A stretch of DNA of 64,000 nt from Rheinheimera salexigens (GTDB lineage: Bacteria > Pseudomonadota > Gammaproteobacteria > Enterobacterales > Alteromonadaceae), in assembly GCF_001752395.1 (NCBI RefSeq), contig NZ_MKEK01000001.1, positions 589,243-653,242 on the forward strand. Direction: 5' to 3'. Under the pieces are notes generated by a model that saw nothing but the letters and a program-made list of their open reading frames with translations, ran no database searches and was not told the DNA's origin. A program made the position numbers and the translations under genes. This document shows, piece after piece, positions 21,413-41,494 of this stretch. Numbering within the stretch: the first letter of the stretch is position 1; the number at the start of each line of letters is the position of its first letter.

Positions 21413-21439
21413 GCTAAATAAGCTAGATAGAAATAGGCA

Positions 21440-21985: not shown

Positions 21986-22115
21986 AAATTACTCCACATA
22001 ATAATCAGTTATTACAACAATAACTTACCTTAAGAAATTATTGTAGCTTATTCAGCTATGCTTGCAGCTTAATCCAATACTCTAATAGTGTAAAAATGTA
22101 ATTAGCTAACCTCAT

Positions 22116-23315
22116 TTATTCTGGATAAAGTAAATAGGATCGGCGCTGTTGACGAAAATGTTGTAAATCGGCTTGCCAACTTTGTCTAATTTCTGGCTCG
22201 GTTAAGCCTTGTTCAATTTGTTGGCGTAGTTTATTGGTGCCAGCTAACTTATCCATAAAATTTTCTGAAGTAAAAAACAGCTCGTTATGTTGTTTAAATA
22301 GTTGATGCCAGTCCAACAAGTAGCGTAAATCTAAACCATGGCTAGACACTTGCCGTAAATCTTGGCCATGTAGTGGTTTGTCCATCAGTGGTGGCGTTAA
22401 TGCCGCACCTGGCGTCGAAACCGGGGTAAAGCTAAAGTCAGCTAAAGCAAATTTATCATAGCCGATAACTTGAAATGGAAATGCTGTACCACGGCCAACA
22501 CTTAAGGGCGTGGCTTCAAAAAAGCCCAGAGAAGGATATAGCGCTATAGCTTGATCATTGGGTAAGTTAGGGCTAGGTTTTACTGGCAGTGAATAGGCCA
22601 TATCGCGGCGATAATGCGCGACGGGGATCACAGTTAATTGCAAAGAATCAGCTTGGTCAATCCAAGCTTCGCCTTTAATCATTAAGGCTAATTCACCAAC
22701 TGTCATACCATGTAGTAATGGAATAGGGTGCATGCCAACAAAAGATTGAAACGCTAGTTCTAATACAGGGCCATCAATAAAAGCACCGTTAGGATTTGGC
22801 CTGTCTAACACAATAAGCGGTATATCAGCGGCAGCCGCAGCTTGCATCAGATAATGTAACGAGCTGATATACGTATAATAGCGCACGCCAACATCTTGAA
22901 TATCAAAAATTAACACATCAATATTGGCCAGTTGTTCTGTTGTAGGCTGCTTATTGGCGCCGTACAAGGACACAATCTTTAAGCCGGTTTTGCTATCGAC
23001 ACTGTTTTTGACATAAGCACCGGCATCATAATCCCCTCTAAAGCCGTGCTCAGGAGCAAAAATAGTGTCTATATTCACCTGATTTTGCAGTAAAACATCA
23101 ACTAAATGTTGGCCGGCTACTTCTGCTGTCGCGTTAACAAGTAAACCAAGCCGTTTATTGACCAACAACGGTAAATATTGCTGCAACTGCGCTGCGCCTA
23201 TGGTAATAGCCGCGGAGCTCTGCTCAGAGTTAGCAATATCCGCAGGCAGCTGTTTGCTACAAGCGGTGATACCCAGAATAAGCACAGACATTAATAGCCG
23301 AGTTAGCTGTTTCAT
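22116..23315 (-). CDS. namZ: exo-beta-N-acetylmuramidase NamZ-like lipoprotein (DUF1343)
   Basis: A 399-residue member of the DUF1343 family, whose Bacillus subtilis member NamZ removes terminal MurNAc from the non-reducing end of peptidoglycan fragments. Family signatures are FAPEHGFRGDYDAG, DIQDVGVRYYTYISSL, LDRPNPNGAFIDGP and PSLGFFEATPLSVGRGTAFP. The start at 23315 gives a lipoprotein signal with lipobox ITAC (Cys19); an earlier in-frame start at 23378 would overlap murQ and hide the signal. It begins 5 nt after the murQ stop and ends the symporter-kinase-murQ-namZ operon. As a lipoprotein it should act in the periplasm and supply MurNAc to the importer. Confidence 0.9.
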   Translation of the reverse strand: MKQLTRLLMSVLILGITACSKQLPADIANSEQSSAAITIGAAQLQQYLPLLVNKRLGLLVNATAEVAGQHLVDVLLQNQVNIDTIFAPEHGFRGDYDAGAYVKNSVDSKTGLKIVSLYGANKQPTTEQLANIDVLIFDIQDVGVRYYTYISSLHYLMQAAAAADIPLIVLDRPNPNGAFIDGPVLELAFQSFVGMHPIPLLHGMTVGELALMIKGEAWIDQADSLQLTVIPVAHYRRDMAYSLPVKPSPNLPNDQAIALYPSLGFFEATPLSVGRGTAFPFQVIGYDKFALADFSFTPVSTPGAALTPPLMDKPLHGQDLRQVSSHGLDLRYLLDWHQLFKQHNELFFTSENFMDKLAGTNKLRQQIEQGLTEPEIRQSWQADLQHFRQQRRSYLLYPE

Positions 23316-23320
23316 ATTGC

Positions 23321-24244
23321 TTACGCCGTTAATGCTTGACGAATTGAATCGCCATTTAGCTGCAACTTTTGCTGACAACGACTGATATCGTCGCCGGTTA
23401 AAATATGCAAAATAGCTAATTTGGCACTGTTATTCGCCGCAATGAGAGCATGACGTGCGGTATCAGCTGGGCAGTCGGTAGCTTGCATAACAATTCGTAC
23501 TGCGCGGGCTTCTAGCTTTTCATTGCTGGCATGTAAATCGACCATCAAGTTTTGATATACTTTGCCACAGCGCACCATAGCAGCCGTAGTTAACATATTT
23601 AAAATCATTTTCTGGGCTGTACCGGCTTTCATCCGCGTAGAGCCAGTAACCACTTCAGCACCTACTACAGCGCAAATGCCACAATCTGCGGCGGCTAGTA
23701 CAGCAGCATCGGCATTACAGCTAATCGCAGCGGTATAAGCGCCTATAGAGCGAGCATAGGCTAGGCCCCCTAACACATAAGGCGTACGACCACTGGCTGC
23801 GATGCCAACTAAAATATCATGCTTATTAAAATCGATATTTTTTAAGTCAGTTACCGCTAAGTCAGGATTATCTTCGGCGCCTTCAACCGCTTTATATACC
23901 GCATTATCACCACCGGCAATTAAGGCCACCACTTGTGACGCCGGTACGCTATAAGTGGGCGGACATTCAACCGCATCTAATATACCTAAGCGACCACTGG
24001 TGCCGGCCCCTAAATACACTAAGCGACCACCTTGTTGAAAGGCGTCAACAATTTTATCGGTAACAATCGCGACTTGTTCTAAGCAAGCAGCGACGGAAGT
24101 GGCGACGGTTTGATCTTGTTGATTAATTTTTTTAACAATGTCTAAACTGGATAATTGATCAAGATCCCAAGTATCAGGATGACGAGACTCTGAAGACATT
24201 TTTTCCAGTTGTTGTAATAAAGAATCCTGTTGTGGATTGGTCAT
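23321..24244 (-). CDS. murQ: N-acetylmuramic acid 6-phosphate etherase MurQ
   Basis: A 307-residue cytoplasmic SIS-domain enzyme that splits MurNAc-6-phosphate into GlcNAc-6-phosphate and D-lactate. Diagnostic motifs are LGAGTSGRLGILDA and ECPPT, GIAASGRTPYVLGGL and EVVTGSTRMKAGTAQK, with the usual family length. It overlaps the upstream kinase gene by four bases (ATGA). The operon has no PTS MurP, so its substrate probably comes from the kinase rather than from phosphorylating transport. Confidence 0.95.
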   Translation of the reverse strand: MTNPQQDSLLQQLEKMSSESRHPDTWDLDQLSSLDIVKKINQQDQTVATSVAACLEQVAIVTDKIVDAFQQGGRLVYLGAGTSGRLGILDAVECPPTYSVPASQVVALIAGGDNAVYKAVEGAEDNPDLAVTDLKNIDFNKHDILVGIAASGRTPYVLGGLAYARSIGAYTAAISCNADAAVLAAADCGICAVVGAEVVTGSTRMKAGTAQKMILNMLTTAAMVRCGKVYQNLMVDLHASNEKLEARAVRIVMQATDCPADTARHALIAANNSAKLAILHILTGDDISRCQQKLQLNGDSIRQALTA

Positions 24245-25125
24245 GGCAAATCCTTGCGTAAAGTTGTGCGATTATATAATTGCGTTGCCAAAATATGAGC
24301 GCCATCAACCGAGTCGCCTCGTGCTGGCTGAAATAAATCTTGTTCTGATTGTCTTAATAGTGGCTTACTAATGTTAGCTAAACCGCCTAATAACATGACA
24401 GGTAAGTTGGTATCTTCACGGCAAGCGTAAATAAGCTTGCTAACAGCTTGGCCATGCTGAATTAACAGCTGTTGGGCAATACCACATTGTTTTTGATACT
24501 CAAATACTAAAGGTGCTAATTGGGCATAGTCGGTTGCAGTGGCTGTTTTTAACCAAGGTAATAATAATTCTGGGGTGGCTGCGGTTTTCGCCGCAATAGC
24601 CTGTAAAAGCGGGCTTTGAATACCGGCTGTACTATCGACATGCCATAGCAATTTACGCATGGCAATTTTACCCAGCCAAGCACCTCCGGCTTCATCACCA
24701 ATATTAAAGCCCCAACCACCGACTTGATGCTCTTGGCCATCAGCATGTAAACGCATGGCAACAGAGCCTGTGCCTAAAGCAACCACGACTACAGGTTGGC
24801 CTAAGTTAGCACCATACAAAGAGGTGCGGGCATCGGTTGTGATCAGCAATTGCTGGAATAAAGGCGCTAAATCGGCTACAGCTTGTTGCTGCTGTTGCGG
24901 ATTACCAGCACCTGCTAAGCCCATCACAGCAGTAATTTGGCAGGGTAAAGCCCCCGACTCTTGGCATAACTGAGTAATTAACTGCTTAATATTCGCTATC
25001 GCTAAGGCGTAATCGTTAGTTAACGACGCCGCCCCGGCTTTATGTTGCCACTGTTGGCCAGTGTCTATATTAGTTAAGCGGGCTAAAGTTTTACAGCCAC
25101 CGCCATCAATTGCTAACAACCACAT
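24241..25125 (-). CDS. BadF/BadG-type sugar kinase, probable MurNAc/GlcNAc kinase (MurK-like)
   Basis: A 294-residue ASKHA-fold kinase of the BadF/BadG/BcrA/BcrD ATPase group, to which the MurNAc/GlcNAc kinase MurK of Clostridium and animal NAGK belong. Phosphate-1 motif LLAIDGGGCKTLARL is at the N-terminus, phosphate-2 VALGTGSVA near residue 120, then GGWGFNIGDEAGGAWLG. It lies one base after the symporter stop and overlaps murQ by four bases. Order and fold match a murT-murK-murQ type pathway in which imported MurNAc is phosphorylated inside the cell. Action on free GlcNAc as well is likely from the family but not proven here. Confidence 0.88.
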   Translation of the reverse strand: MWLLAIDGGGCKTLARLTNIDTGQQWQHKAGAASLTNDYALAIANIKQLITQLCQESGALPCQITAVMGLAGAGNPQQQQQAVADLAPLFQQLLITTDARTSLYGANLGQPVVVVALGTGSVAMRLHADGQEHQVGGWGFNIGDEAGGAWLGKIAMRKLLWHVDSTAGIQSPLLQAIAAKTAATPELLLPWLKTATATDYAQLAPLVFEYQKQCGIAQQLLIQHGQAVSKLIYACREDTNLPVMLLGGLANISKPLLRQSEQDLFQPARGDSVDGAHILATQLYNRTTLRKDLP

Positions 25126-25126
25126 A

Positions 25127-26701
25127 TTAGTTACCTACTAGCTGTGCTCTAACATTAGAGTTAACTGGCTTACCACTTAAGCAGACTAACGTGGCCACTA
25201 CCGTGCCAATACACAACTGCCAAGTAAAACCAATGTCTAGCCCTGCTAAACGAGGGCTTATAAGTTGTAATATATAAGGTTGAAATAATAACGTCACCAT
25301 AAAGCCAGCAATTAATGCCGCGGTTACCGAAACGCTATTACCACGGTGACTAAATAGCGCAGTAAAAAACACGCCTAATAAACCGCTGTAAGAAAACACC
25401 ATCACGCTTAGGGCAAATGCCAGTAGCGGCATATCGGAATATTGCTGCCAATAAAAACACAATATCGCCATTAAAGATAAGGTAACAGCGGTAAATAACA
25501 TGCCAAACTGACCGGCTTTTACAAAGTGTTTGGCCGGTGTAGCAGGTTGTTTCGCCAGCTTCCACGGTTTATACATATCGGCGACTAACACTGAAGACAT
25601 AGAGTTTAAGCCTGACGTGATAGTCGATAGGGCAGCGGCAATCACGCCAACAATCACTAAGCCGCGTAAACCAGAAGGCATTTCATTTAACACGTAGTAC
25701 ATAAACACAGTGACTTTTTCACCGGCAAAACTATCGGCAAATTGCTGAGTGGGTTGATATAAATCAGGCCGTTGATAAAAGATATAGAGTAAAAAGCCAA
25801 TTAAAATAAAAATTAACATCACCGGTATTACCATAAATACCGAGCTTAATAATGCTTTAGCGCCAGATTTACTGTCTTTACAGGTAAGTACTCGCTGAGT
25901 CATATCCTGATCCATACCAAAGGCGGCTATGTTTAATAAAATAAAACCGGTTAAGGCTGAGGCCATATTAAATACGCCAGCAGAGCTGGTATCTAAGCGC
26001 CAATCAAACAGTAATAACTTAGAATCGCCGCCTTCAATTGGCTGGCTAAGTGCTTGGTGCAAGGTGCTTAAATCTAAGCCTAGGCTAGTGTATAAATAGC
26101 CTAAAACTAATAATGCGGCACTAACATAAACCGCACATTGCAGCGCATCGGTATAAATAACCGAGCGAATACCACCAACTACGGTACAGGCTAAGCCAAT
26201 AACCGCCAGTAAGATAACGGCCGATATCACACTGCTGGCATCAATATTACCAAATAGCAACATTGCCACAGCGATTGCCGCCATATACAAGCGGGCGCCG
26301 CTGGCAAACACTCGGCCAAATAAATACATTTTACCGGCATGGTTTTTAGCCGTCGCGCCAAAGCGTTGTTCTAACAATTCATAAACGGTGGTAACTTTAT
26401 ATTGGTAGTAGCGCGGTAATAAAAATTTAATCACTAGAATAGCCGCTATAATAGCGCCAATATTAGTGGCTAAATAAGTTAAATTGCCACGAAAGCCCAT
26501 GTCGGGGCCACCTAAAAAAGTAGCAGCAGATTGCGAAGTCGCTAATACTGAAATAGCCACTACCCAGACTGGCATGTTATTACCACCTAAAAAATAGTCG
26601 TTACTATCGGTGGATTTTTTACGATTAAAATACCAGCCAGCACAGGCCAAAATGGCGAAGTAGCCAACAAACACCCCCCAATCTAACAAGGTTAGTTGCA
26701 T
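25127..26701 (-). CDS. sodium:solute symporter (SSS family), probable MurNAc/amino-sugar importer
   Basis: A 524-residue SSS-family symporter with about 13-14 membrane helices. The N-terminus LDWGVFVGYFAILACAGW is family-typical, as are SQSAATFLGGPDMGFRG and the GGIRSVIYTDALQ segment. It uses the Na+ gradient to import a sugar or sugar acid. I chose the ATG at 26701, which has a GAG-type ribosome site eight bases before it; an in-frame GTG at 26710 is the alternative. It is the first gene of the operon with a kinase, MurQ and NamZ, so MurNAc is the best substrate guess, in place of the PTS transporter MurP of enteric bacteria. Confidence 0.88.
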   Translation of the reverse strand: MQLTLLDWGVFVGYFAILACAGWYFNRKKSTDSNDYFLGGNNMPVWVVAISVLATSQSAATFLGGPDMGFRGNLTYLATNIGAIIAAILVIKFLLPRYYQYKVTTVYELLEQRFGATAKNHAGKMYLFGRVFASGARLYMAAIAVAMLLFGNIDASSVISAVILLAVIGLACTVVGGIRSVIYTDALQCAVYVSAALLVLGYLYTSLGLDLSTLHQALSQPIEGGDSKLLLFDWRLDTSSAGVFNMASALTGFILLNIAAFGMDQDMTQRVLTCKDSKSGAKALLSSVFMVIPVMLIFILIGFLLYIFYQRPDLYQPTQQFADSFAGEKVTVFMYYVLNEMPSGLRGLVIVGVIAAALSTITSGLNSMSSVLVADMYKPWKLAKQPATPAKHFVKAGQFGMLFTAVTLSLMAILCFYWQQYSDMPLLAFALSVMVFSYSGLLGVFFTALFSHRGNSVSVTAALIAGFMVTLLFQPYILQLISPRLAGLDIGFTWQLCIGTVVATLVCLSGKPVNSNVRAQLVGN

Positions 26702-26766
26702 GGTTAACACTCAGTAAAAATTATCAATAGGCTAACCTTACCATAATGTCTTATATTGGAGTAAAG

Positions 26767-26795
26767 TATTCATTTTGATTTAGCTTGAATGAATA
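26767..26795. promoter_or_regulatory. candidate operator between symporter operon and nagZ
   Basis: Perfect eight-base arms TATTCATT (26767-26774) and AATGAATA (26788-26795), with centres 21 bp apart, lie in the 147-bp divergent intergenic region. This is the spacing of a dimer bound on one DNA face. No regulator gene is adjacent, so the identity of the binding protein is open. Confidence 0.4.
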
Positions 26796-26848
26796 AATTA
26801 TTTTTGTTGTACTGCAGTTAGCGTTTGTCAAAATCATAGGATGCCAAA

Positions 26849-28819
26849 GTGGCCAAATTTCGGATCGAGGTAAAAAAGTCATGTCTACAGACATTAACGA
26901 TATTAACGACGCTGCTGTTCAGCTCAAGTTTAATGGCGGCTGCTGTGGTAGGTAATGGTATGAATAATAACAGCGAGTTAACTAAAACCATGCCAAACAG
27001 CCATAGCAACAAGATCCCAGCGGCCAGTGTTAAACAAATGCTGGGTCAAAAGTTAATGCTAGATTTACGCTATTATTGCGAAAAGCCCGTCGCTGCTGGG
27101 CGTTGTAAAACCCCTATGACCAAGTTGCCGCCAGAGCTAGCAAAGCTGATCCGCGATTATGATATTGGCGGCATAATTTTATTTGCCGAAAACTTAGATA
27201 ATATTCAGCAAATTGTGCAGCTCAATCGCGACTTACAACAAGCCGCCACCAGCTCACCATTACAGCAACCATTATTTATTGGTATTGACCAAGAGGGTGG
27301 CCGTGTTGCTCGATTACCGCGTTCACTAGCCACGTCTTTTAGCGGTAATATGGCTATAGGTGCCACGTATGCAGAGCATGGCACTCGCTTTGCTTCTGAA
27401 GTGGGCAAAGTATTAGCCGCAGAATTATTGCCACTCGGTATTAATGTTAACTTTGCGCCCACGGTAGATGTAAACGTTAACCCTGATAATCCGGTTATTA
27501 ACGTTCGCGCGTTTTCCGAAGATCCGCACCAAGTCGCCGAGCTAGGCGCTGCAATGACCCAAGCCATGCAACAGCAAGGCATGATTGCCGCCCTTAAACA
27601 CTTTCCTGGTCATGGCGATACAGCAGTAGATAGCCACTTAGGCTTGCCGATAGTGGAACATAGTGCCGAGCAAATACGCCAAGTGGACTTATACCCGTAT
27701 CAGCACATTATTCAGCAGCAAAACCCTGGCATGATTATGACGGCACATATTCAATTTCCAGCATTAGATGACAGCACTTTTGTGTCTAAACAAGGTGAGG
27801 TCATGATAAAGCCCGCGACTTTATCACGTAAAATTTTGCACGGTGTATTACGCCAAGAGTTAGGGTATAACGGCGTTATTGTTACCGATGCCTTAGATAT
27901 GGCCGGTATTAGTAAGTTTTTCACTCATACCGAAGCGGTAATCCAAACATTTTCAGCTGGCGCCGATATCGCCCTAATGCCAGTGAAATTACAACAACCG
28001 GCAGAGTTGCCCGCGTTAGCTGCTTTATTAGAGCAGTTAAGCCAAGCGGTAGCGGATAACATTATTCCTAAAGCGGAATTGGCGGCATCTTATCAGCGTA
28101 TTATTAAGTTAAAGCAGCAATATCCGTTGTTACCAAAAGCTAATTCTGTTTCAGAGCAAGTGCAACAAGCTACTGCGGCTTTAGGTAGCCTACAACATAG
28201 AGCCAGTGAGCTTGCCTTAGCCCAAGCGGCCATAACTCAAGTTAAGCCACCACATACTGACGCAGCGAACGATGAACAGTTGATTATCAAAAAGCAGCAA
28301 AAGTTATTATTAATTATGCCAGATCAAGCTAAAGCATCGGCATTGGCTGCTAGCTTGGCCTATTACAGCAAAGCGGCATTAACGATTGATATTATAAGCT
28401 TACAGCAAACTGATATTAGCGATGTGGCGGCGAAAATTGCTAAAGCAGATGTGGTTATTAGCGGCTTTATTTCACCGATGCAAAGCTTAGCCGACATTGG
28501 CGGTATGGACGATATGACGGGAATAAGAACCATAGCCGCGGCTTATCAGCGGCAAAAAACTATATTTGAGCTGCTTTTACCTAAAGTGGTAGCAGCCAAT
28601 AAACCGCATGTTTATATCAGTTTACGGGCACCTTATGATATTAGTGATTATGGCCAGTATGCGGATTTAGTCTTAGCCACTTATGCCTACAACACTGCTG
28701 AAGATCCTACTAGTATCGATGCCGGTAACGCCACTTACCAAGCATTAGCTCAAGTATTGCTAGGACAAATTAAAGCCGGTGGTCAACTACCGGTCAGTGT
28801 AAAAATGAGTCAGCACTAA
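26849..28819 (+). CDS. nagZ: exported two-domain beta-N-acetylglucosaminidase NagZ (GH3)
   Basis: A 656-residue GH3 enzyme that removes GlcNAc from muropeptides. The catalytic domain contains GIDQEGGRVARLP, the KHFPGHGDTAVDSH loop near residue 249 that supplies the His-Asp acid/base pair, and the nucleophile Asp in VTDALDMAGIS near residue 346. An N-terminal signal segment (about residues 1-32) and a C-terminal domain of about 220 residues distinguish it from the single-domain cytoplasmic NagZ of enteric bacteria and resemble Bacillus-type secreted NagZ. The GTG start has AGGA seven bases before it. It is divergent from the MurNAc uptake operon and overlaps the nagX-like gene by one base. Confidence 0.93.
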   Translation: MAKFRIEVKKSCLQTLTILTTLLFSSSLMAAAVVGNGMNNNSELTKTMPNSHSNKIPAASVKQMLGQKLMLDLRYYCEKPVAAGRCKTPMTKLPPELAKLIRDYDIGGIILFAENLDNIQQIVQLNRDLQQAATSSPLQQPLFIGIDQEGGRVARLPRSLATSFSGNMAIGATYAEHGTRFASEVGKVLAAELLPLGINVNFAPTVDVNVNPDNPVINVRAFSEDPHQVAELGAAMTQAMQQQGMIAALKHFPGHGDTAVDSHLGLPIVEHSAEQIRQVDLYPYQHIIQQQNPGMIMTAHIQFPALDDSTFVSKQGEVMIKPATLSRKILHGVLRQELGYNGVIVTDALDMAGISKFFTHTEAVIQTFSAGADIALMPVKLQQPAELPALAALLEQLSQAVADNIIPKAELAASYQRIIKLKQQYPLLPKANSVSEQVQQATAALGSLQHRASELALAQAAITQVKPPHTDAANDEQLIIKKQQKLLLIMPDQAKASALAASLAYYSKAALTIDIISLQQTDISDVAAKIAKADVVISGFISPMQSLADIGGMDDMTGIRTIAAAYQRQKTIFELLLPKVVAANKPHVYISLRAPYDISDYGQYADLVLATYAYNTAEDPTSIDAGNATYQALAQVLLGQIKAGGQLPVSVKMSQH

Positions 28820-30024
28820 TGCTCGCTATGGTTAGGCGGCACTGCCAACATATTCTTGCCCAGTTACCTGGCCATCGTATGCTGGCGCTAGATGTATTAC
28901 GCGGCCTAACCATAACCGCAATGATTTTAGTCAATAACCCGGGCAGTTGGAGCTATGTTTATGCGCCGCTGCGACATGCAGAATGGCATGGTTGGACCGT
29001 TACCGATCTAATTTTTCCCTTTTTTATTGTCATAGTCGGTATTTCCATCCAGCTGAGTTTAGCCAAGCCCACCTTAACCAATTCAGCATTTAATAAAATC
29101 GAGCAATTAAAGCAGGGCCTTATACGTAGCGCCAAGTTATATGTTTTAGGGCTGTTTTTAGTGCTGTTTTACTATAATTTTCGCGATGTTAATTATAGCT
29201 ATATTGAACAAAAGCTTATGACATTGCGAGCATTTGGCGTACTGCAACGCATCGCTGTGGTGTATTTTTTTAGCTTAGTAATCGCTTTATATTGCGGCAC
29301 TCGCGGTCGAATTTTTGCGGCTATTGGGCTTACTATCATTTATTTAGCGGCAATGTATAAACTGCCATATCAATCTGAATATGGTACAGAGTTTGTTGGT
29401 TTGTTTGAGTTTGGTAATAGTTTTGCGGCTTGGCTAGATCATACGATATTGGGCGCCAGCCACGTTTATTATCGCAGTGCCACCCCCTTTGCTTTTGACC
29501 CTGAAGGGCTTTGGTCAACCTTGCCGGCTATTGTTAGTTGTATCAGTGGTTTATTAATTGCTCAGTGGTTGCAAGCAGATCGCACCTTAGTGGCTAAAGT
29601 GCGTGGCTTAGCCTTATTTGGCGTTGTCGCGGTGTGGATAGCTGAATTTTGGCATTATGGTTTGCCAATTAATAAAAGCTTGTGGACCCCTAGTTTTGTA
29701 TTACTCAGCAGCGGTTACTGTGCCTTAGCCTTAGCGGCTTGTATTTGGTTATGTGATATTAAAAGATATCGGTTGTGGAGTGCACCTTTTATTGTGTTTG
29801 GTGCTAACGCTATTTTATTTTTTATGTTTGCCGGTGTTGCTGCGCGGGCTTTAGGTATGATTAGCATAGGTGAAAGCTCATTACACAGCTGGTTGTATAA
29901 CACCATCTATCAGCCCTTATTCGGTGACTATAATGGCTCACTCGCCTTTGCCTTAAGCTTTTTAGCGTTATCTTATATTCTGATGTATAGCTGTTATAAG
30001 CGCGGTTATATTTTTAAGGTCTAG
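28819..30024 (+). CDS. NagX/DUF5009-type membrane acyltransferase-like protein
   Basis: A 401-residue protein with about ten or eleven membrane helices, of the heparan-alpha-glucosaminide N-acetyltransferase-like (DUF5009, COG4299) group. The hallmark N-terminal stretch is LDVLRGLTITAMILVNNPG, followed by TDLIFPFFIVIVG and GVLQRIAVVYF. Bacterial members (NagX) occur in N-acetylglucosamine regulons of Xanthomonas- and Shewanella-like bacteria and are proposed to handle amino sugars at the membrane; the reaction is not settled. Its ATG overlaps the nagZ stop as TAATG, so it is translated with NagZ. This places it in peptidoglycan amino-sugar use. Confidence 0.87.
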   Translation: MLAMVRRHCQHILAQLPGHRMLALDVLRGLTITAMILVNNPGSWSYVYAPLRHAEWHGWTVTDLIFPFFIVIVGISIQLSLAKPTLTNSAFNKIEQLKQGLIRSAKLYVLGLFLVLFYYNFRDVNYSYIEQKLMTLRAFGVLQRIAVVYFFSLVIALYCGTRGRIFAAIGLTIIYLAAMYKLPYQSEYGTEFVGLFEFGNSFAAWLDHTILGASHVYYRSATPFAFDPEGLWSTLPAIVSCISGLLIAQWLQADRTLVAKVRGLALFGVVAVWIAEFWHYGLPINKSLWTPSFVLLSSGYCALALAACIWLCDIKRYRLWSAPFIVFGANAILFFMFAGVAARALGMISIGESSLHSWLYNTIYQPLFGDYNGSLAFALSFLALSYILMYSCYKRGYIFKV

Positions 30025-33783: not shown

Positions 33784-34650
33784 TTAGTAATCGAATTTAT
33801 GGCTGCTAAATAACTGCTGGGCTGCTAGCCAAACATCACCCACTTGGCCATCGCCGACAGGGTTATTGTTAACGGTTAGCACCGGTGCAATTTCTTTACT
33901 TGAACTGGTTATCCAAATTTCATCTGCCGCTAATACTTCTGCTTCACTAATATCGCGTTCTTGCACTTCAATATCACTATGCTTTGCTAAAATAGCTAAC
34001 AGTATTTGCCGGGTAATACCTGGCAGTAACTTAGTGCTTAAAGGTGGGGTGGCGATAACACCATCTTTGATTACAAACACGTTAACTGCTGCGCCTTCGG
34101 TTAAGTTACCTTGTTTATCAAATAACAAGATTTCTTGTGCGCCTTGCTCAGCACCTTGCTGATAATGCAGCACGTTACCTAATAATGAGGTCGATTTAAT
34201 ATTACAACGCTGCCAGCGTAAGTCTTGGCCGGTAACCACATTATAAATAGTCGCTTTGGCTTTATCGGCTACCGGCTCTGGCGGAATAGCAAACACAAAG
34301 CCAAAAACAGTCGGCGCAACATTAGTCGGAAAAGCATGACCGCGTTTAGTATCGGTACCACGACTAACTTGAAAATATACTCCAAGATTATCACCTAGCT
34401 CGGCTTTATTATCGGCCACTAACTGCTCGGCAATATGTTGCCATTTTTCATGGCTTAGCTGAGGATCAATTGATAGCTGACCCAAACCACTATGCATCCG
34501 ATCGATATGGGGGGCAAAACCGACAAAGCGGCCACTGTAGCTTGGAATTACTTCATAAATACCATCGCCAAACAAAAAACCGCGATCCATTGGAGAGATC
34601 TTTGCCTGTTCGGCCGGGATAAAGTCACCATTTAAGTACACTGTTGTCAT
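33784..34650 (-). CDS. class IV PLP aminotransferase, D-amino-acid transaminase-like
   Basis: A 288-residue fold-type IV aminotransferase. The N-terminus YLNGDFIPAEQAKISPMDRGFLFGDGIYEV matches D-amino-acid transaminase and 4-amino-4-deoxychorismate lyase groups, in whole best the former; the PLP Lys is in NIKSTSLLGN and the phosphate cup is GITRQILL. D-amino-acid transaminase moves the amino group between D-Ala and 2-oxoglutarate, giving D-Glu. It lies 169 nt upstream of nothing else on its strand except the repeat and DUF4392 operon, so it may be transcribed separately. Placement next to a D-glutamate-cyclase-like gene and pxpABC supports D-Glu metabolism. A branched-chain or lyase activity cannot be excluded. 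Confidence 0.85.
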   Translation of the reverse strand: MTTVYLNGDFIPAEQAKISPMDRGFLFGDGIYEVIPSYSGRFVGFAPHIDRMHSGLGQLSIDPQLSHEKWQHIAEQLVADNKAELGDNLGVYFQVSRGTDTKRGHAFPTNVAPTVFGFVFAIPPEPVADKAKATIYNVVTGQDLRWQRCNIKSTSLLGNVLHYQQGAEQGAQEILLFDKQGNLTEGAAVNVFVIKDGVIATPPLSTKLLPGITRQILLAILAKHSDIEVQERDISEAEVLAADEIWITSSSKEIAPVLTVNNNPVGDGQVGDVWLAAQQLFSSHKFDY

Positions 34651-34736
34651 TGCTATTCTCGTATTAAAAGCTAGTCGTTATAAGTTAGTTGTAAGTTATA
34701 AGTTGTTTATGGCTAAACGCGTGAACCGATTCGCCC

Positions 34737-34810
34737 TAAGCTAACCCTTGCAGCCCCGGATGGGCGAAAAGGAGCCTACAGGGATGTATTTACGGCGTGT
34801 TGGCGTGGGC
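34737..34810 (+). repeat. dispersed intergenic repeat, copy 1 (short form)
   Basis: About 74 bases between the DUF4392 and aminotransferase genes. The left block contains CCCTTGCAGCCCCGGATGGG and can form a GCCC/GGGC hairpin; the right block contains GAGCCTACAGGGATG and TTTACGGCGTGTTGGCG. The inverted copy at 52627-52770 carries both blocks with about 70 extra bases between them; a third starts at 63955. Confidence 0.85.
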
Positions 34811-34819
34811 AACTTGGTT

Positions 34820-35692
34820 CTAAGCTCTATCCGCAGCTAAGTTCACTGTAGAAAGCAGCGCGCGTAAATCATTGATCAAAGTTAAGCCTTCTGTATGCGG
34901 CAAGCTATCTTCAGTAATAGTATTTAACCGTGTCACGCCATCAACACTACCTTTAGCCGATAAATACTGCAAAATAGCTAATGGATCAGCATCTTGTAGC
35001 ATATCTTGATTGCGCAGCACCGATACCATAGCGGCCAGTCCCCATGCCGCCCAATTGGACACATCGGCGACAATTAACTCATCACATTCAGTTACCGCCG
35101 GAATAATATCAAGTTGTGCTAATGCCTGCTTGAGATTTCCCATGCCAATTTCATTACCACCATCACCAATACCTATAGTTGGGCAAGTGGCTAGATTTAA
35201 AAAGTCATCAAAACTGGCGCAACGGGCAGAAATATCTTCGCCACGCATATTACTATAGCGCTTCTGGTTGTTAAATCCCGGACGCTCTATGGAGATAATC
35301 AATTGCGGTGCTAATTCGGCCAAAGCTTGGTTGGCAATAGCAGGTAATTCCTGAGATTGGTTAACCTTAAGTTGATAGCAGCGATAATCAGCCGATAACT
35401 GGCTAAATAGCGGATCGCCACAAACAATAATCGGCGAAGCACCAAGCTGTTGTAGCAGCTGATATAAGGCTATAGCGCCAACTGGACCGTCGGTTTCAAA
35501 TGTATCCAGTACCGGAAAACCGGTACCAATTAACACTGTGCCACGGCATTGATTAATTAATCGTGCGGCACGTAAAATATAGCCCGGTCTAAGCAGGGGC
35601 TGTAATTTCGCCATACCGCGTAAATTTTGCCGTACTAATAAGCTTTCTATTTTTTGGCTTAACGCCAAGTAATCCTGACCGGCTGTTATCAT
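34820..35692 (-). CDS. DUF4392 protein, D-glutamate cyclase-like
   Basis: A 290-residue protein of the DUF4392 family, the C-terminal half of the animal D-glutamate cyclase DGLUCY, which turns D-Glu into 5-oxo-D-proline. Conserved stretches are LIGTGFPV, ETDGPVGAIALYQ, ISIERPGFN, MRGEDIS, PTIGIGDGGNEIGMGN and VADVSNWAAWGL; the Gly/Asp/Asn-rich loop looks like the active site. Its ATG directly follows the pxpC stop, making it the last gene of a pxpA-pxpB-pxpC-DUF4392 operon. It could therefore supply 5-oxoproline to the hydrolase encoded upstream. Whether DUF4392 alone is active, without the DUF1445 half encoded at 40691-41494, is not known to me. Confidence 0.85.
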   Translation of the reverse strand: MITAGQDYLALSQKIESLLVRQNLRGMAKLQPLLRPGYILRAARLINQCRGTVLIGTGFPVLDTFETDGPVGAIALYQLLQQLGASPIIVCGDPLFSQLSADYRCYQLKVNQSQELPAIANQALAELAPQLIISIERPGFNNQKRYSNMRGEDISARCASFDDFLNLATCPTIGIGDGGNEIGMGNLKQALAQLDIIPAVTECDELIVADVSNWAAWGLAAMVSVLRNQDMLQDADPLAILQYLSAKGSVDGVTRLNTITEDSLPHTEGLTLINDLRALLSTVNLAADRA

Positions 35693-36643
35693 TTATGACA
35701 GTGTCCATTGCTGAGTAATGCTTTTAAAATACACGTCGGCTAAACAAAGTGCATTATGTGCTTGCTCGATAGAAATCGGCGTAAAGTATACTTGGGTACC
35801 CGGGCTAGCTTGGGCTAATAAAGCGCAATCTAAAGATAACACTGAGCCAATTTTCGGATAACCGCCTAAGGTTTGCCGATCATTTAACAGCACTATCGGC
35901 TGGCCATCCGGTGGTATCTGTACGGCACCGTAACAAATACCCTCGGATAATAAACTCTGCTGTTGGCACTGAATAGCGCTGCCTTTAAGCTTATAACCCA
36001 TTCGATCAGACTGTGGTGTAACAGTATAAGGATGTAAGTAAAAGCGTTGCCGTTCAGTGGCTATAAACTGCTTAGCTTGATAGCCTTCAATTAAGCGCAG
36101 GGTTAAGGTGTTATTAAATTTCCGTCTATGCTCGGTCGCTAAACTACGCTTCATGCAGCTGCTAACGCTGGTTACTGCTAACGTATCGCCGGCTTGTAAT
36201 TTATCACCGTTTAAACCACCAACTTTCTCTCTTAACACCGTAGCAGTGCTAGTAAATTGTGGTTGAACATTAAAACCTTGGGCTACGGCGACATAAGCGC
36301 GCAAGCCGGCTGTTACCATGCCTAATTCAATAATATCGCCGGCACTAATGGCTAATGTAGTCCACATTGGCGCGTCTTGGCCGTTAATACTCACGCTAAG
36401 TTCAGCACCGGTAATGGCAATGTAGCTGGCGCAATTGGCTTGTAACTGCAAACCGCCGACACTGCATTCAATTAAAGTGGCATTGCTGTCATTGTCTAAC
36501 AACGCATTAGCAATATCAGCTGAATAGGCATCAACTGGGCCACCATTAGTTAGGCCAAGCTCACTTTGGCCAAAACGTCCGCGATCTTGCAGTAAACTTA
36601 GTATGCCGGCAGATAGCACGGTAAAATTACTCATACTACTCAT
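35693..36643 (-). CDS. pxpC: 5-oxoprolinase subunit PxpC
   Basis: A 316-residue PxpC/KipA-type protein (biotin-dependent carboxyltransferase-like AHS2 domain), one of three subunits that hydrolyse 5-oxoproline to glutamate with ATP. Family motifs: LSLLQDRGRFG, GLTNGGPVDAYSADIAN, ITGAELSVSING, SDRMGYKLKG and GICYGAVQIPPDGQPIVLLNDRQTLGGYP, the last two being diagnostic. It overlaps pxpB by four bases (ATGA) and abuts the DUF4392 gene. Confidence 0.93.
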   Translation of the reverse strand: MSSMSNFTVLSAGILSLLQDRGRFGQSELGLTNGGPVDAYSADIANALLDNDSNATLIECSVGGLQLQANCASYIAITGAELSVSINGQDAPMWTTLAISAGDIIELGMVTAGLRAYVAVAQGFNVQPQFTSTATVLREKVGGLNGDKLQAGDTLAVTSVSSCMKRSLATEHRRKFNNTLTLRLIEGYQAKQFIATERQRFYLHPYTVTPQSDRMGYKLKGSAIQCQQQSLLSEGICYGAVQIPPDGQPIVLLNDRQTLGGYPKIGSVLSLDCALLAQASPGTQVYFTPISIEQAHNALCLADVYFKSITQQWTLS

Positions 36644-37332
36644 AATTCACCGCCTAATCGTAAAAATTCTGCTTTATCAATGGCCACAAATTGCACTTCG
36701 TCACCCACTGCAACGGGCATAGCGGGGGTAGCATCAGGGTTAAACATTGGGCTAGGGCATAAACCTATTAAGTTCCAGCCACCAGGGGACATCGCTGGAT
36801 ACACGGCGGTTTGTCTATCAGCAATGGCTACCGCGCCTTTAGGCACTTTGGCCCGAGGAGAGCTTAAACGCGGCATTTGCAGTATAGGATCAACTTCACC
36901 CAAATAAGCAAAACCAGGGGCAAAACCAATAGCATAAACGCGATATATCACTGCTTGGTGGCGCTGAATAACCTCAGCCACGCTAATCTGCTTGGTGTCG
37001 GCAATTAAGCGTAAATCAGGTCCACTTTCTTCACTGTAATATACCGGTAACTCAACTAATTTACCGCTGCTAATACTCGCGTTTGCTTGCTGCTGTAAAC
37101 AGTTTTTTATTTTACTACTAACTAAAAGATGGTTGGTCTGCAAAGCATTGAAGACAATTAAAATTGAAGCGTAAGAGGGCAGAATATCAATCAAATCGTC
37201 ACCAAGAGCTTGGCGAATTTGTTGGCTAGCCAACTGCACTTGGCCTGATATTTCTGCTGCCATTTGTTGCTGAAAATACAGAATTAATGCATTTTCACCG
37301 GCAATCTCTAATTGATACGGCGACTTACTCAT
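36640..37332 (-). CDS. pxpB: 5-oxoprolinase subunit PxpB
   Basis: A 230-residue PxpB/KipI-type protein (AHS1 domain), the partner subunit of PxpC. Diagnostic stretches are LPVYYSEESGPDL (usually PVCY/PVYYG), VYAIGFAPGFAYLGEVDP, MPRLSSPRAKVPKGAVAIADRQTAVYP and SPGGWNLIGLCP. It starts 13 nt after pxpA and ends in the pxpC start. In Bacillus the same protein doubles as KipI, an inhibitor of sporulation kinase A; here only the metabolic role is expected. Confidence 0.93.
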   Translation of the reverse strand: MSKSPYQLEIAGENALILYFQQQMAAEISGQVQLASQQIRQALGDDLIDILPSYASILIVFNALQTNHLLVSSKIKNCLQQQANASISSGKLVELPVYYSEESGPDLRLIADTKQISVAEVIQRHQAVIYRVYAIGFAPGFAYLGEVDPILQMPRLSSPRAKVPKGAVAIADRQTAVYPAMSPGGWNLIGLCPSPMFNPDATPAMPVAVGDEVQFVAIDKAEFLRLGGEL

Positions 37333-37345
37333 ACCAATGACCCAT

Positions 37346-38071
37346 TCATGCTAACAGCTCGCGAATTTTTGCTATTTGCAAAATCGCTGCTGGGTTATCG
37401 CCATGGACACAAAGCGTGTCTGCTTGCAGCGCTAACCTATTACCCGATTGTGTAGTCACAGTGCCAGATTGCACCAGTTGCTGTACTTGTTGCAGCATCT
37501 CGGTTTCAGATAACACAGCACCGGCTTGGCTACGTGGTGTTAATTTACCGTCATCGGTATAGCGGCGATCGGCAAAGGCTTCAAACAATAGCGTAACACC
37601 CGCTTGCTCGGCTAATTGCCGATAATGATCTTGCTCAGCAGTCGCTAATATCATTAATTTTAACGGTTGATAATATTCAGCTATCGCTGCGAGGACAGCA
37701 GTAAATACGTTGGGCTTGCTCATCATATCGTTATATAAGGCACCGTGCGGTTTAACATATTCTAAGGTTAAGCCTGCTGTTTTGGCCATGCCATCTAAAG
37801 CCGCTATTTGATAATGCATCATATGAACAATTTCAGCATGGGATAACGCCATGCTGCGCCGACCAAAACCTTGTAAGTCAGGATAGGCAGGATGAGCGCC
37901 AATGGTAACGTTATGTTGCTTGGCTAATTGCAAAGTGCTGGCCATCACATCGGCATCACCCGCATGAAAACCACAGGCAATATTCGCCATATCGATATGC
38001 GGCATAGCCTTGGCATCTAAGCCCATTTGCCAACTACCGAAACTTTCGCCTAAATCACAGTTTAATTTCAT
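37346..38071 (-). CDS. pxpA: 5-oxoprolinase subunit PxpA (LamB/YcsF family)
   Basis: A 241-residue LamB/YcsF-family protein, the hydrolase subunit of the PxpABC 5-oxoprolinase. It begins MKLNCDLGESFGSWQMG and contains DMANIACGFHAGDADVM, GAHPAYPDLQGFGRR, KPHGALYNDM, EAFADRRYTDDGKLTPRSQAGAV and CVHGDNPAAI, all family hallmarks. It is the first gene of the operon, divergent from the 2OG-Fe(II) oxygenase gene across 264 nt that must hold both promoters; I see no confident box there. Confidence 0.94.
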   Translation of the reverse strand: MKLNCDLGESFGSWQMGLDAKAMPHIDMANIACGFHAGDADVMASTLQLAKQHNVTIGAHPAYPDLQGFGRRSMALSHAEIVHMMHYQIAALDGMAKTAGLTLEYVKPHGALYNDMMSKPNVFTAVLAAIAEYYQPLKLMILATAEQDHYRQLAEQAGVTLLFEAFADRRYTDDGKLTPRSQAGAVLSETEMLQQVQQLVQSGTVTTQSGNRLALQADTLCVHGDNPAAILQIAKIRELLA

Positions 38072-38335
38072 CGTTTTACCTTATACCTAGCTAGGGAAGC
38101 AGTGTGCGATAAGCCAGAAATGATGTCTACCAGATATGACGCATTGCCAATACATTTAGCCGCAATTTTAACCGTTCTTGGCTCTGTGCAACACCAAAAC
38201 TATTTATTTGGTTAATTTAGATGTGCAGCCGTCTGCTTATTCTTATTGCGTATAACTCGGCGTAATTAGTTCCTTATTGTTGCCAGGCACTAAGCTTAAA
38301 ATAGCGGCAGTTATTAGCCAATATAGAGTAAGAAA

Positions 38336-39343
38336 ATGAGCCAATTAAATCTGCCGGTGCTGGATCTTAGTTTATGGTACGCAAAAGGTGAGTCGCGACA
38401 ACGCTTTTTACAGCAATTAGCCGTGGCCGCCCGCGATGTTGGCTTTTTCTATCTAACTGGGCATGGCTTAACGCTAGAGCAGCAACAGCATATTTTACAG
38501 CTCGCTAAGCAATTTTTTGCCTTATCTGATGCTGAAAAACAAGCAGTACAAATGGTACAGTCAGCGCATTTTCGTGGCTACACCCGTTTAGGTGGCGAGC
38601 TAACGCAAGGCCAAGCCGATCAGCGTGAACAGTTTGATATCATGAACGAACAAAAAGCGCTTACTATTACCCCGACCATGCCAGCATGGCAGCGGTTAAT
38701 AGGCCCTAATCAATGGCCAACGGCTTTACCTGAGCTGCAGCCAGCGTTATTGCAATGGCAACAACAGCTGTCCGATTTAACGGTTACTTTGCTCACGGCG
38801 TTTGCTCAAGTATTACAGCAACCAGACAATGCCTTTGCTGATACAGTAAAGGACGGTCCATACTCTCATATGAAGTTAATTCGTTATCCGGGTACTGCTA
38901 CGGCGCAAAATCAGGGTGTAGGGGCGCATAAAGATCCCGGCTATTTAACCTTAGTGCTGCAAGATCAACAATCGGGTTTAGAAGTATTAACCGATAACGG
39001 TTGGGTGGGTGCTGCCCCTTTACCCGGTGCTTTTGTTGTTAATATTGGCGAACTGTTAGAATTAGCGTCTAATGGTTATTTAAAGGCTACTATGCATCGG
39101 GTAGTGAGCCCGCCAGCCGGTATTGAACGCTTATCCTGTGCATTTTTTATGGCCGCGCAGCTAGATGCAACAGTACCTTTATTAGCATTACCGGCAGAAT
39201 TAGCCGCGCAAGCTAAAGGTCCAGCCAGCGACCCAACTAACCCATTATTTTATCAAGTGGGTGAAAATGTGTTAAAAGGACGTTTACGCTCACATACCGA
39301 TGTAGCTAAAAAACATTATTCTAGTTTGATAGCAGTAGATTAA
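38336..39343 (+). CDS. 2-oxoglutarate/Fe(II) dioxygenase, isopenicillin N synthase-like
   Basis: A 335-residue member of the isopenicillin-N-synthase-like 2OG-Fe(II) oxygenase family. The N-terminal DVGFFYLTGHG block belongs to the DIOX_N domain. The iron triad is intact: His198 and Asp200 in GAHKDPGYLTL and a distal His near 253 in MHRVV, followed by the 2OG/substrate-binding RLS motif. It hydroxylates or desaturates a small molecule in the cytoplasm. It is followed 93 nt later by a PLP gamma-lyase-like gene on the same strand, probably the same transcript, so sulfur or amino acid metabolism is a fair guess; the substrate is unknown. Confidence 0.88.
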   Translation: MSQLNLPVLDLSLWYAKGESRQRFLQQLAVAARDVGFFYLTGHGLTLEQQQHILQLAKQFFALSDAEKQAVQMVQSAHFRGYTRLGGELTQGQADQREQFDIMNEQKALTITPTMPAWQRLIGPNQWPTALPELQPALLQWQQQLSDLTVTLLTAFAQVLQQPDNAFADTVKDGPYSHMKLIRYPGTATAQNQGVGAHKDPGYLTLVLQDQQSGLEVLTDNGWVGAAPLPGAFVVNIGELLELASNGYLKATMHRVVSPPAGIERLSCAFFMAAQLDATVPLLALPAELAAQAKGPASDPTNPLFYQVGENVLKGRLRSHTDVAKKHYSSLIAVD

Positions 39344-39436
39344 GCACAACACATTTGCATCAATAAAAGCAGCATCGAAAAAGCAAAATAGACCAAGAAT
39401 CAGCAGAATAAAACGGCATTATAACGGAGCCTATAG

Positions 39437-40597
39437 ATGAAATTTAAAACTCAATTGTTGCATAGTAACGGCGGTGCCGATGCGCAAACGGGCGCCTTAA
39501 CAACGCCTATTTATCAAAGCAGTACTTTTACCTATGGCACAGCTGCAGAAGGTAAAGCCCGTTTTGCCGGTGAGCAACCAGGCTTTATTTATAGTCGGAT
39601 GGGTAATCCAACAGTACAGGCATTAGAGCAACAATTAGCTAAATTAGAAGGTGCTGAAGAAGCCTTAGTACTGGCCAGCGGCATGGCAGCGGTTAGCAGT
39701 ATTTTTTATGCTTTAGTTAGCCAAGGTGACGAAATTGCTTTTATTGATCCAGTATACGGCGGTACTGCGGCTTTTTTAATTAATACCTTAACGAGAGCCG
39801 GGATCAAGGTCAGCCGCTATCAAAGTGATGACGACTTACTAGAAAACATAAGCTTAGCCACTAAAATCATTTTATTCGAACCTATCACTAACCCGAATTT
39901 ACGGGTTAATGATTATCGCAAAATTAAAGCGGCAGCGGCTAAAACTGGCGCTATTACGGTCTGTGATAATACCTTTTTAACCCCGTATTTATTTAAACCA
40001 TTAGAGTATGGCATTGATATTGTGATGCACAGCGGCACCAAATATTTAAGTGGCCATGGCGATATTATTGCCGGTGTCGTCGCAGGTCGTAGTGAATTAA
40101 TGCAACCTATTCGTACTATAGCTTTAAAGCATATTGGCGCACCTATTGGCCCACAAGAAGCGTATTTATTACAACGTGGTATGCGGACTTTAGCACTGCG
40201 AATGGATGCTCATTTAGCCGGTGCTATTGAAGTCGCGGAATTTCTAGCCACCCATCCAAAGGTTAATAACGTTATTTTCCCGGGTTTAGCCAGCGATGCA
40301 GGCCATAAAGTGTTGGCCGAAACCGTCGGCGTTTTTGGTGGCATGGTTAGCATTGAATTAACGGGCGGCTTTGCCCGTGCGGCACGGTTTTTAGATCAAT
40401 TGCAGTTATTTACTCAAGCTGTCAGCTTAGGTGATTTAGAAAGCTTAGCTTGTCATCCTGCAAGCACCACCCATGCTGCTATGGATCACGCCAGCCGACT
40501 GGCCGCAGGGGTCAGTGATGACTTAATTCGCTTTAGCATAGGGGTTGAAGATCCGGCTGATTTAATTGCCGATTTAAAGCAGGCATTAGAGTTTTAA
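39437..40597 (+). CDS. Cys/Met-metabolism PLP enzyme, methionine gamma-lyase-like
   Basis: A 386-residue fold-type I PLP enzyme of the trans-sulfuration family. The PLP Lys lies near residue 202 in MHSGTKYLSGHGD; other family stretches are YQSSTFTYG, YSRMGNPT, ASGMAAVSS and DNTFLTPYLFKPLEYG. Overall it best fits methionine gamma-lyase, cystathionine gamma-lyase or O-acylhomoserine sulfhydrylase. In true methionine gamma-lyases an active-site Cys sits in a YGCT-type motif; here the same position reads YGGTAAF, so the Cys is Gly and strict Met specificity is doubtful. A GGAG ribosome site precedes the ATG and a bidirectional terminator follows. Confidence 0.88.
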   Translation: MKFKTQLLHSNGGADAQTGALTTPIYQSSTFTYGTAAEGKARFAGEQPGFIYSRMGNPTVQALEQQLAKLEGAEEALVLASGMAAVSSIFYALVSQGDEIAFIDPVYGGTAAFLINTLTRAGIKVSRYQSDDDLLENISLATKIILFEPITNPNLRVNDYRKIKAAAAKTGAITVCDNTFLTPYLFKPLEYGIDIVMHSGTKYLSGHGDIIAGVVAGRSELMQPIRTIALKHIGAPIGPQEAYLLQRGMRTLALRMDAHLAGAIEVAEFLATHPKVNNVIFPGLASDAGHKVLAETVGVFGGMVSIELTGGFARAARFLDQLQLFTQAVSLGDLESLACHPASTTHAAMDHASRLAAGVSDDLIRFSIGVEDPADLIADLKQALEF

Positions 40598-40642
40598 ACT
40601 CTAGCATTTATGTGACTAGCAATTGAGTACATTGCTGATTCA

Positions 40643-40683
40643 AAAGGCTGCAGAAACCCTTGTTGGCAACTGCAGCCTTTTTA
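40643..40683. terminator. bidirectional terminator between convergent genes
   Basis: An eleven-pair perfect stem AAAGGCTGCAG (40643-40653) / CTGCAGCCTTT (40670-40680) with a 16-base loop and T-runs on both strands. It serves the PLP enzyme gene (+) and the DUF1445 gene (-), whose stop is 8 nt away. Confidence 0.9.
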
Positions 40684-40690
40684 TTGGCTG

Positions 40691-41494
40691 TTAAAACACC
40701 GATAATTTACTATTTGGTAAGTCAGTCACTAACATATAGCCTGGACTATGGGTAATACAGATATCTAATTTGGCATTAGCAATAGCCACTTGCGGTGTTA
40801 CGCCGCAGGCCCAAAATACTGGCACTTCACCCGGCTTGATTGTAACCGCATCACCAAAATCAGGTTTATTAATATCGTTAATACCAATAGCAGCTGGATC
40901 ACCAAAATGTACTGGTGCGCCATGCACTTGCGGAAAGCGTGAACAAATTTGAATGGCCCGAATGGCATCAGCCGGCTTCATAGGACGCATACTTACCACC
41001 ATGCCACCAGAAAATACGCCTGCCGGTTCGCAAGCAATATTGGTGCGATACATCGGCACGTTTACTTGCTCAGTAATATTGCGAATTTCTAAACCATCAG
41101 CAATTAAAGACTCTTCAAATGAAAACGAACAACCAATTAAAAAGCTGACAAAATCATCTTGCCAATAGGCATTAATATCGCTGACTTCTTCAACTAATTG
41201 GCCTTGCTTAAACACCTTATATTTAGGAATGTCAGTGCGAATATCCAGATCAGCCGCTAACTGTGGCATATCTACTGCACCCGGTGTCGCCGACATAGCT
41301 AATAACGGACATGGCTTAGGATTAAAGTGGCAAAACTGCAAAAAATCTGCCGCATATTGCTTAGGCATTATGGCCAAATTAGCCTGAACAAAGCCCGGTG
41401 CTTGGCCAGAGGTATTAGCCGTAAATTGATTACGCCGAATTTGCTGACGTAGTTGTAATGGTGTTAGCGGCGATTTTAAAGCAGAAGCGGACAT
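40691..41494 (-). CDS. DUF1445 / YcsI-family putative hydro-lyase
   Basis: A 267-residue protein of the DUF1445 (YcsI) family, annotated in databases as putative hydro-lyase and forming the N-terminal half of the animal D-glutamate cyclase DGLUCY. Signatures: [86 protein letters not shown] and FWACGVTPQ. In Bacillus ycsI sits in the ycsF-kipIA (pxpABC) operon, and here it lies 2.6 kb from pxpA. It is separately transcribed (promoter side towards recG, 59 nt away) and ends at a shared terminator. The reaction of the stand-alone protein is not established. Confidence 0.88.

Follow-up and report, generated by a model that had tools for sequence, protein, structure and literature searches.

Separate genes for the two halves of a D-glutamate cyclase-like enzyme near pxpABC in Rheinheimera salexigens, and their possible role in salvage of peptidoglycan D-glutamate

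Genes and families at the locus

We analysed a 64,000-nt stretch of the forward strand of Rheinheimera salexigens (contig NZ_MKEK01000001.1 of assembly GCF_001752395.1, positions 589,243-653,242), hereafter the window, in which relatives of both halves of the vertebrate D-glutamate cyclase DGLUCY are encoded as two genes near those for 5-oxoprolinase. Genes were called from a list of open reading frames (ORFs), and families were assigned with the profile models of Pfam and NCBIfam and their cut-offs. The relative of the C-terminal half of DGLUCY is a DUF4392 (GLUCM-like_C) protein, encoded on the minus strand at 34820..35692 (PF14336, 225 bits against a cut-off of 27.9); that of the N-terminal half is a DUF1445 (D-Glu_cyclase) protein, on the same strand at 40691..41494 (PF07286, 230 bits; the NCBIfam model NF003969, 'putative hydro-lyase', scores 419 against a cut-off of 324). 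Each domain matches once in the source genome, both far over cut-off. The naming itself is already known, as Pfam calls PF07286 'D-glutamate cyclase' and PF14336 'D-glutamate cyclase-like, C-terminal', and some close relatives of the window DUF4392 protein, whose named close homologues come mostly from Rheinheimera, Arsukibacterium and Alishewanella, are annotated as 'glutamate cyclase domain-containing protein'. The DUF1445 protein has 2pif and 3db9 as relatives in the PDB, and its predicted structure reaches a predicted local distance difference test (pLDDT) value of 92 and a predicted template-modelling (pTM) score of 0.88.

The three 5-oxoprolinase subunits are encoded together, also on the minus strand: pxpA at 37346..38071 (PF03746, 315 bits; NF003816, 364 over a cut-off of 213), pxpB at 36640..37332 (PF02682, 220 bits; TIGR00370, 153 over 146) and pxpC at 35693..36643 (PF02626, 281 bits; TIGR00724, 251 over 230; the PxpC equivalog NF045499 scores 225 bits, under its cut-off of 500). 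In the order of transcription, pxpA is followed after 13 bp by pxpB, which overlaps pxpC by 4 bp; pxpC abuts the DUF4392 gene, and after a further 169 bp comes a class IV aminotransferase gene (33784..34650, minus strand; PF01063, 171 bits). We label its product only as of the D-amino-acid transaminase type, because its best NCBIfam models, which are D-amino-acid transaminases, stay under their curated cut-offs (242 against 320 and 223 against 277 bits). Its closest PDB relatives are the D-amino-acid aminotransferases 4pbc, 4m0j and 3daa, and it has the class IV fold and shares the RxH motif with the Bacillus enzyme, KRGHAFP aligning to PRAHQFP of 3daa.

The original prediction had described these genes, the abutting and overlapping joints between DUF4392 and the pxp genes, and a DUF1445 gene 2.6 kb away, all of which the ORFs, profile matches and coordinates bear out. 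Measured from the DUF1445 gene, pxpA is 2,619 bp and the DUF4392 gene 5.0 kb away, so that the single-chain architecture of D-glutamate cyclase is not found in the window, where the domains are two genes. Between pxpA and DUF1445 stand two plus-strand genes, for a 2-oxoglutarate-Fe (2OG-Fe) oxygenase and a Cys/Met pyridoxal-phosphate (PLP) enzyme, and DUF1445 starts 59 bp behind recG. We therefore place it outside the pxp operon, and we reject a shared operon as the cause of the closeness of the two DUF genes in this genome, given the intervening opposite-strand genes and the position behind recG, which recurs in both genus-mates.

Joint inheritance, clustering and natural fusions of DUF1445 and DUF4392

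To follow the two genes across the window's family, 79 evenly drawn genomes, each at least 90% complete, were searched. DUF4392 was found in 16 and DUF1445 in 16, and these are the identical 16 genomes, none having one gene alone. Seven genera are each represented by one genome with both genes and one with neither (G238/G284, G289/G244, G294/G253, G256/G297, G261/G301, G267/G304 and G273/G308), and in all seven the two genes come and go jointly. PxpA is present in 72 of the 79 genomes, compared with 16 for the DUF pair, and in this family PxpA is therefore general equipment and the pair an accessory. Across the order (247 genomes, partly overlapping the family sample) DUF4392 occurs in seven genomes and DUF1445 in six, all six within the seven. 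Across the class, DUF4392 was found in one and DUF1445 in four of 232 genomes; DUF1445 does occur alone here, and the sample is too sparse for a test of association since DUF4392 appears only once. The DUF4392 model had no match in 14 control genomes, including that of Bacillus subtilis. As the surveyed genomes are related, combinatorial chance figures were not used as probabilities.

Gene order was then compared at the 15 other DUF4392 loci of the family, each taken with flanks of at most about 10 kb. At 13 of the 15, DUF1445 lies in the same gene cluster as DUF4392, and in eight of those 13 the order is DUF1445-pxpA-pxpB-pxpC-DUF4392, often with a terminal aminotransferase; 11 of 18 DUF4392-bearing loci have a relative of the aminotransferase nearby. 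Variants include a differing gene order (L026), a cluster without pxpA (L032) and three loci (L033-L035) where DUF1445 directly adjoins DUF4392 without pxp genes, pxpA being on another contig in those genomes. The two loci without a clustered DUF1445 belong to genus-mates of R. salexigens, where DUF1445 is about 60 kb off, behind recG and near ridA and spoT. The window thus shows in scattered form a cluster whose genes lie close together elsewhere in the family. All five Pseudoalteromonas plasmid records that match DUF4392 also match DUF1445. Two of them, read gene by gene, hold the series GH3-DUF1445-pxpA-DUF4392-aminotransferase (L017, 2539-7700; L018, 2536-7700), the pxpA of L018 being interrupted by a frame change in the record; pxpB had no match on either plasmid record, the chromosomes not having been searched.

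Beyond the family, species genomes were scanned with a DUF4392 alignment. At least 527 stretches encoded a relative, and we examined the best 80 of them, those most similar to a clostridial sequence. In 41 of the 80, a DUF1445 gene is found no more than about 9 kb from DUF4392; 40 loci have the two on one strand, 35 have them at most 300 bp apart, and two have them in one frame. By hand-assigned phylum, it is near in 20 of 23 loci from Chloroflexi, 11 of 26 from Bacillota, four of four from Spirochaetota and none of ten from Rokubacteria. A pxp gene is near DUF4392 in 14 of the 80 loci, 12 of which also have DUF1445. Eight recurrent neighbours of the DUF4392 genes that lack DUF1445 showed no common theme. 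We reject chance neighbourhood, since both genes are rare across the class (DUF4392 in 1/232 and DUF1445 in 4/232) and yet are shared by an identical set of 16 family genomes out of 79 and lie at most 300 bp apart in 35 of 80 loci. Around DUF1445 genes, we also noted a pxpA 5.7 kb away in Agrobacterium and a gene annotated as DUF4392 3.7 kb away in Sinorhizobium; in Mycetohabitans neither pxp nor DUF4392 is annotated near. As a separate observation, nine Chloroflexi loci (L079, L083, L089, L090, L093, L098, L104, L111 and L113) have an enolase-superfamily (MR/MLE) gene, identified in one representative, close to the two DUF genes; this superfamily includes dipeptide epimerases.

The two domains also occur in single chains. 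Using the two window proteins joined end to end as query, we counted, among the 233 proteins listed as matches, at least 59 DUF4392-DUF1445 fusions, at least ten in the animal order DUF1445-DUF4392, at least six DUF4392-MurD-like-DUF1445 fusions and at least one PxpC-DUF4392 fusion (P0226, named as from a Porticoccaceae bacterium). Architectures were checked in nine proteins with Pfam and in seven with NCBIfam. The six with a MurD-like piece (P0130, P0132, P0134, P0141, P0152 and P0184) all have a P-loop-like TGT(I/V)GKRTT loop, and in all six the murD model covers only its first two thirds. In an enlarged set, at least 48 of the 280 proteins listed are animal-order fusions, 28 of them vertebrate by name, and one, P0254, is annotated to Acidaminobacter. 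The fusion, which the original prediction mentioned for the animal enzyme, is therefore not restricted to animals, since bacteria have fusions in both orders. DUF1445 has been described as conserved only in vertebrates (PMC5339696), and the authors of the work on the archaeal protein TON_0340 remarked that the two domains are fused in higher animals and proposed that their functions are sequentially linked (PMC5132392). We found no paper that describes bacterial fusions of DUF1445 and DUF4392 or ties them to peptidoglycan in literature that leaves most subscription journals uncovered.

Peptidoglycan-salvage genes, conserved residues and further features

A peptidoglycan-salvage island, absent from the original prediction, occupies 17588-30024 of the window. 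On the minus strand it encodes a VanX-type D-Ala-D-Ala dipeptidase (17588..18328; PF01427, 158 bits; NCBIfam VanX, 201 under a cut-off of 320), a NamZ exo-beta-N-acetylmuramidase (22116..23378; PF07075 and PF20732), MurQ, the N-acetylmuramic acid 6-phosphate etherase (23321..24244; TIGR00274, 396 over 302), a BadF-type amino-sugar kinase (24241..25125; PF01869; NagK model, 105 under 370) and an SSF sodium:solute symporter (25127..26710; PF00474). On the plus strand follow a GH3, NagZ-like beta-N-acetylhexosaminidase (26849..28819; PF00933; NF003740, 212 over 207) and a NagX-like membrane acetyltransferase (28819..30024; PF07786; NagX model, 149 under 480). An M14 carboxypeptidase and an NhaC-type antiporter, which scores far below the cut-off of a Tet(35)-family model, are also encoded there. 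With such genes close by, a likely source of D-glutamate is encoded near the pair.

The same association recurs in relatives, in some of which a GH3 enzyme precedes DUF1445; that of the Pseudoalteromonas plasmid L017 is 53% identical to the window GH3. Seven of the 15 family loci (L025, L026, L028, L029, L031, L032 and L034) have homologues of the window salvage genes (GH3, NagX, murQ, kinase, SSF, NamZ) close to the cluster. Elsewhere an alanine racemase follows the aminotransferase (L030), or an amidase-beta-lactamase protein precedes DUF1445 (L023). The survey also speaks clearly for the proposed link of the pair to pxp and peptidoglycan genes.

Both halves have conserved residues. The window DUF4392 protein matches the TON_0340 chains (E about 7e-27), and its E66, D68, E136, D177, E181 and D262 align with the metal-site residues E59, D61, E115, D157, E161 and D246 of TON_0340. 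These six acids are kept in all 28 vertebrate DGLUCY sequences examined, which are the vertebrate-named proteins (fish, bird and frog, mammals not being among them) within P0245-P0280, as are C122, C230, H191 and H249 of DUF1445. Among 111 non-redundant DUF1445 sequences, C122 and C230 are cysteine in every one. C62 is likewise cysteine in 111 of 111, but all 28 vertebrate sequences have leucine there. Position D251 of DUF4392, aspartate in 97% of its non-redundant set, is serine in all 28.

Some further features of the window complete the picture. No Rfam family reached its gathering score between 26 and 48 kb. Promoter-like sites (13, against 18.0 in shuffles) and terminator-like sites (12, against 10.3) were about as frequent as in shuffled sequence, and we thus claim no operon ends from them. 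No inverted repeats were found in the 169-bp gap between the DUF4392 and aminotransferase genes; a 25-base motif in this gap (34776-34800) recurs with one mismatch at 52636-52660, with a chance expectation of 0.00, and is perhaps a dispersed repeat. Between NagX and the aminotransferase lie a gene for a glutamate-receptor-like protein that combines a solute-binding domain with an ion-channel pore (30064-31170) and two for DUF6795 proteins (31299-31835 and 33067-33627) on either side of a class 3 lipase.

Proposed function, alternatives and comparison with known systems

Taken together, the joint presence and absence, the clusters, the fusions and the peptidoglycan context indicate that DUF1445 and DUF4392 very probably form a real and widely conserved pair that works together on D-glutamate of the cell wall. 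The co-occurrence survey, set beforehand as a test, speaks clearly for the pair, the genes being shared by one set of 16 among 79 genomes and near each other in 41 of 80 loci. That the locus is a split DGLUCY, which salvages peptidoglycan D-glutamate and feeds 5-oxoproline metabolism, is in our judgement reasonably probable. D-glutamate freed from peptidoglycan would enter the pathway, and the DUF1445 and DUF4392 proteins, presumably in contact, would close it to the five-membered lactam 5-oxoproline. The acidic, Mn-type site of DUF4392 would probably be where the ring closes, and DUF1445 would be a second half, needed just as much. PxpABC would open the lactam to glutamate using ATP, the flow presumably running from the wall towards glutamate, and the class IV aminotransferase would exchange D-alanine and D-glutamate, so that both wall D-amino acids could enter. 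Homology to mouse DGLUCY leads us to infer that the product is 5-oxo-D-proline: in line with what the original prediction gave for the mammalian enzyme, recombinant mouse DGLUCY converts D-glutamate to 5-oxo-D-proline, without an L-glutamate peak, and the 5-oxoproline that people excrete is mainly the D form (both from PMC5339696). Co-occurrence, clustering and bacterial fusions thus support the earlier suggestion that the two DUF proteins are the halves of a cyclase, cyclase activity itself being what homology predicts.

Several points weigh against this interpretation. No activity of a bacterial member is reported in the literature covered, and TON_0340, an archaeal DUF4392 protein, is reported to be a Mn-dependent phosphatase (PMC5132392). 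One genome of the order sample (G491, locus L123) has an orphan DUF4392 with no DUF1445 match in the genome, and none of the other query genes in the 12.3-kb stretch around it. The 2.6-kb closeness seen in the window, noted in the original prediction, is not conserved in the genus, DUF1445 being about 60 kb from DUF4392 in both genus-mates, and in other genera of the family the genes share a cluster instead. DUF1445 is missing from 39 of the 80 loci, nine of which have less than 1.5 kb on one side. DUF1445 also occurs next to pxp genes where the stretch read contains no DUF4392: in Azospirillum, and in Lactiplantibacillus and Klebsiella, in both of which genes for a biotin carboxylase and an NRAMP protein accompany them. 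Finally, 240 plasmid records match DUF1445 but six match the window DUF4392, and few of the 240 can therefore hold a close DUF4392; two of the seven Pseudoalteromonas plasmid records with DUF1445 are absent from those six.

The chemistry raises a further difficulty. Closure of the 5-oxoproline ring is favoured and its opening needs ATP, so that a cyclase followed by PxpABC alone would be a futile cycle, which could be avoided if one half inverts the ring or if the 5-oxoproline opened by PxpABC comes from another source. The scheme first proposed left out an inversion step. Such a step is central to an unlikely alternative with two enzymes in series, in which DUF4392 would make 5-oxo-D-proline from D-glutamate, DUF1445 would turn it into 5-oxo-L-proline by means of its invariant cysteine pair, and PxpABC would yield L-glutamate, the net conversion being of D-glutamate and ATP to L-glutamate through the lactam. 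This would explain why PxpABC is in the same cluster, and the invariance of C122 and C230 fits it. DUF1445 pairs with DUF4392 without pxp in the stretch in 29 of 41 loci and is also found with pxp where the stretch has no DUF4392, while DUF4392 with pxp and without DUF1445 occurs in two of 80; in the resulting chain, DUF4392 - DUF1445 - pxp, DUF1445 stands in the middle, as expected of an inverting step. However, no racemase is among the fold-comparison matches listed for the DUF1445 model, and the excreted D form speaks against inversion in mammals unless the changes at C62 and D251 mark its loss. A version that builds in this loss strikes us as rather improbable: D-glutamate would be closed by DUF4392, inverted by DUF1445 as a two-cysteine epimerase and reopened by PxpABC, and vertebrates would have inherited the first two domains already fused, lost inversion (C62 to Leu, D251 to Ser) and so excrete 5-oxo-D-proline.

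Two other explanations concern the substrate. DUF4392 might be a metal-dependent phosphatase like TON_0340, acting on a phosphorylated intermediate, with only an indirect tie to D-glutamate. The window protein has the same six acids as TON_0340, whose phosphatase activity is reported to be lost in the E59Q and D157L variants, but that activity is called low and directed toward many compounds (PMC5132392). Joint inheritance with DUF1445, and fusions with DUF1445, PxpC and the MurD-like piece, point to D-glutamate and 5-oxoproline rather than to a phosphatase, which we regard as quite improbable. The pair could instead act on peptide-bound D-glutamate from muropeptides, for example gamma-D-glutamyl ends, or on another small acid, free D-glutamate not being the main substrate. 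Peptidase or amidase genes near some clusters, such as that of L023 and the VanX-type and M14 genes of the window, would fit; mouse DGLUCY, in contrast, acts on free D-glutamate (PMC5339696), and we hold this to be very improbable. Returning to the split cyclase as the preferred interpretation, the locus may offer a concrete route for cell-wall D-glutamate back into central metabolism. DGLUCY is a known vertebrate enzyme, with no tasks assigned to its domains in the literature covered, and the bacterial genes, split and clustered with those for PxpABC, the aminotransferase and salvage, allow single halves to be deleted or purified. If one half does invert the ring, this would be a new conversion of a D- to an L-amino acid.

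Compared with known systems, the window pair has both domains in common with vertebrate DGLUCY/GLUCM (9030617O03Rik, C14orf159; EC 4.2.1.48), which is one chain where the window has two genes, and which has Leu for C62 and Ser for D251, unlike nearly all bacteria read. TON_0340 (the Thermococcus DUF4392 protein; PDB 4FC5 and 5GL4) shares with the window DUF4392 its sequence family and the six acids, but was studied alone and reported as a phosphatase, unlike our interpretation of the pair. Both halves as neighbouring bacterial genes have already been counted in gut microbes, where Table 1 of PMC11580864 gives 0 and 6 for homologs of human GLUCM, columns which we take to be full-length and 'split homologs'; in the passages covered that paper gives the count only, without the name DGLUCY and without analysis of pxp, peptidoglycan, co-loss or bacterial fusions. 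The pxp/ycs operon of B. subtilis has pxpA, pxpB and pxpC in common with the window, and, as the original prediction had noted, ycsI, a DUF1445 gene, is part of it, as is ycsG, for a Mn importer (PMC10448178). The window cluster differs in having no NRAMP gene among its ORFs and in the addition of DUF4392 and the aminotransferase.

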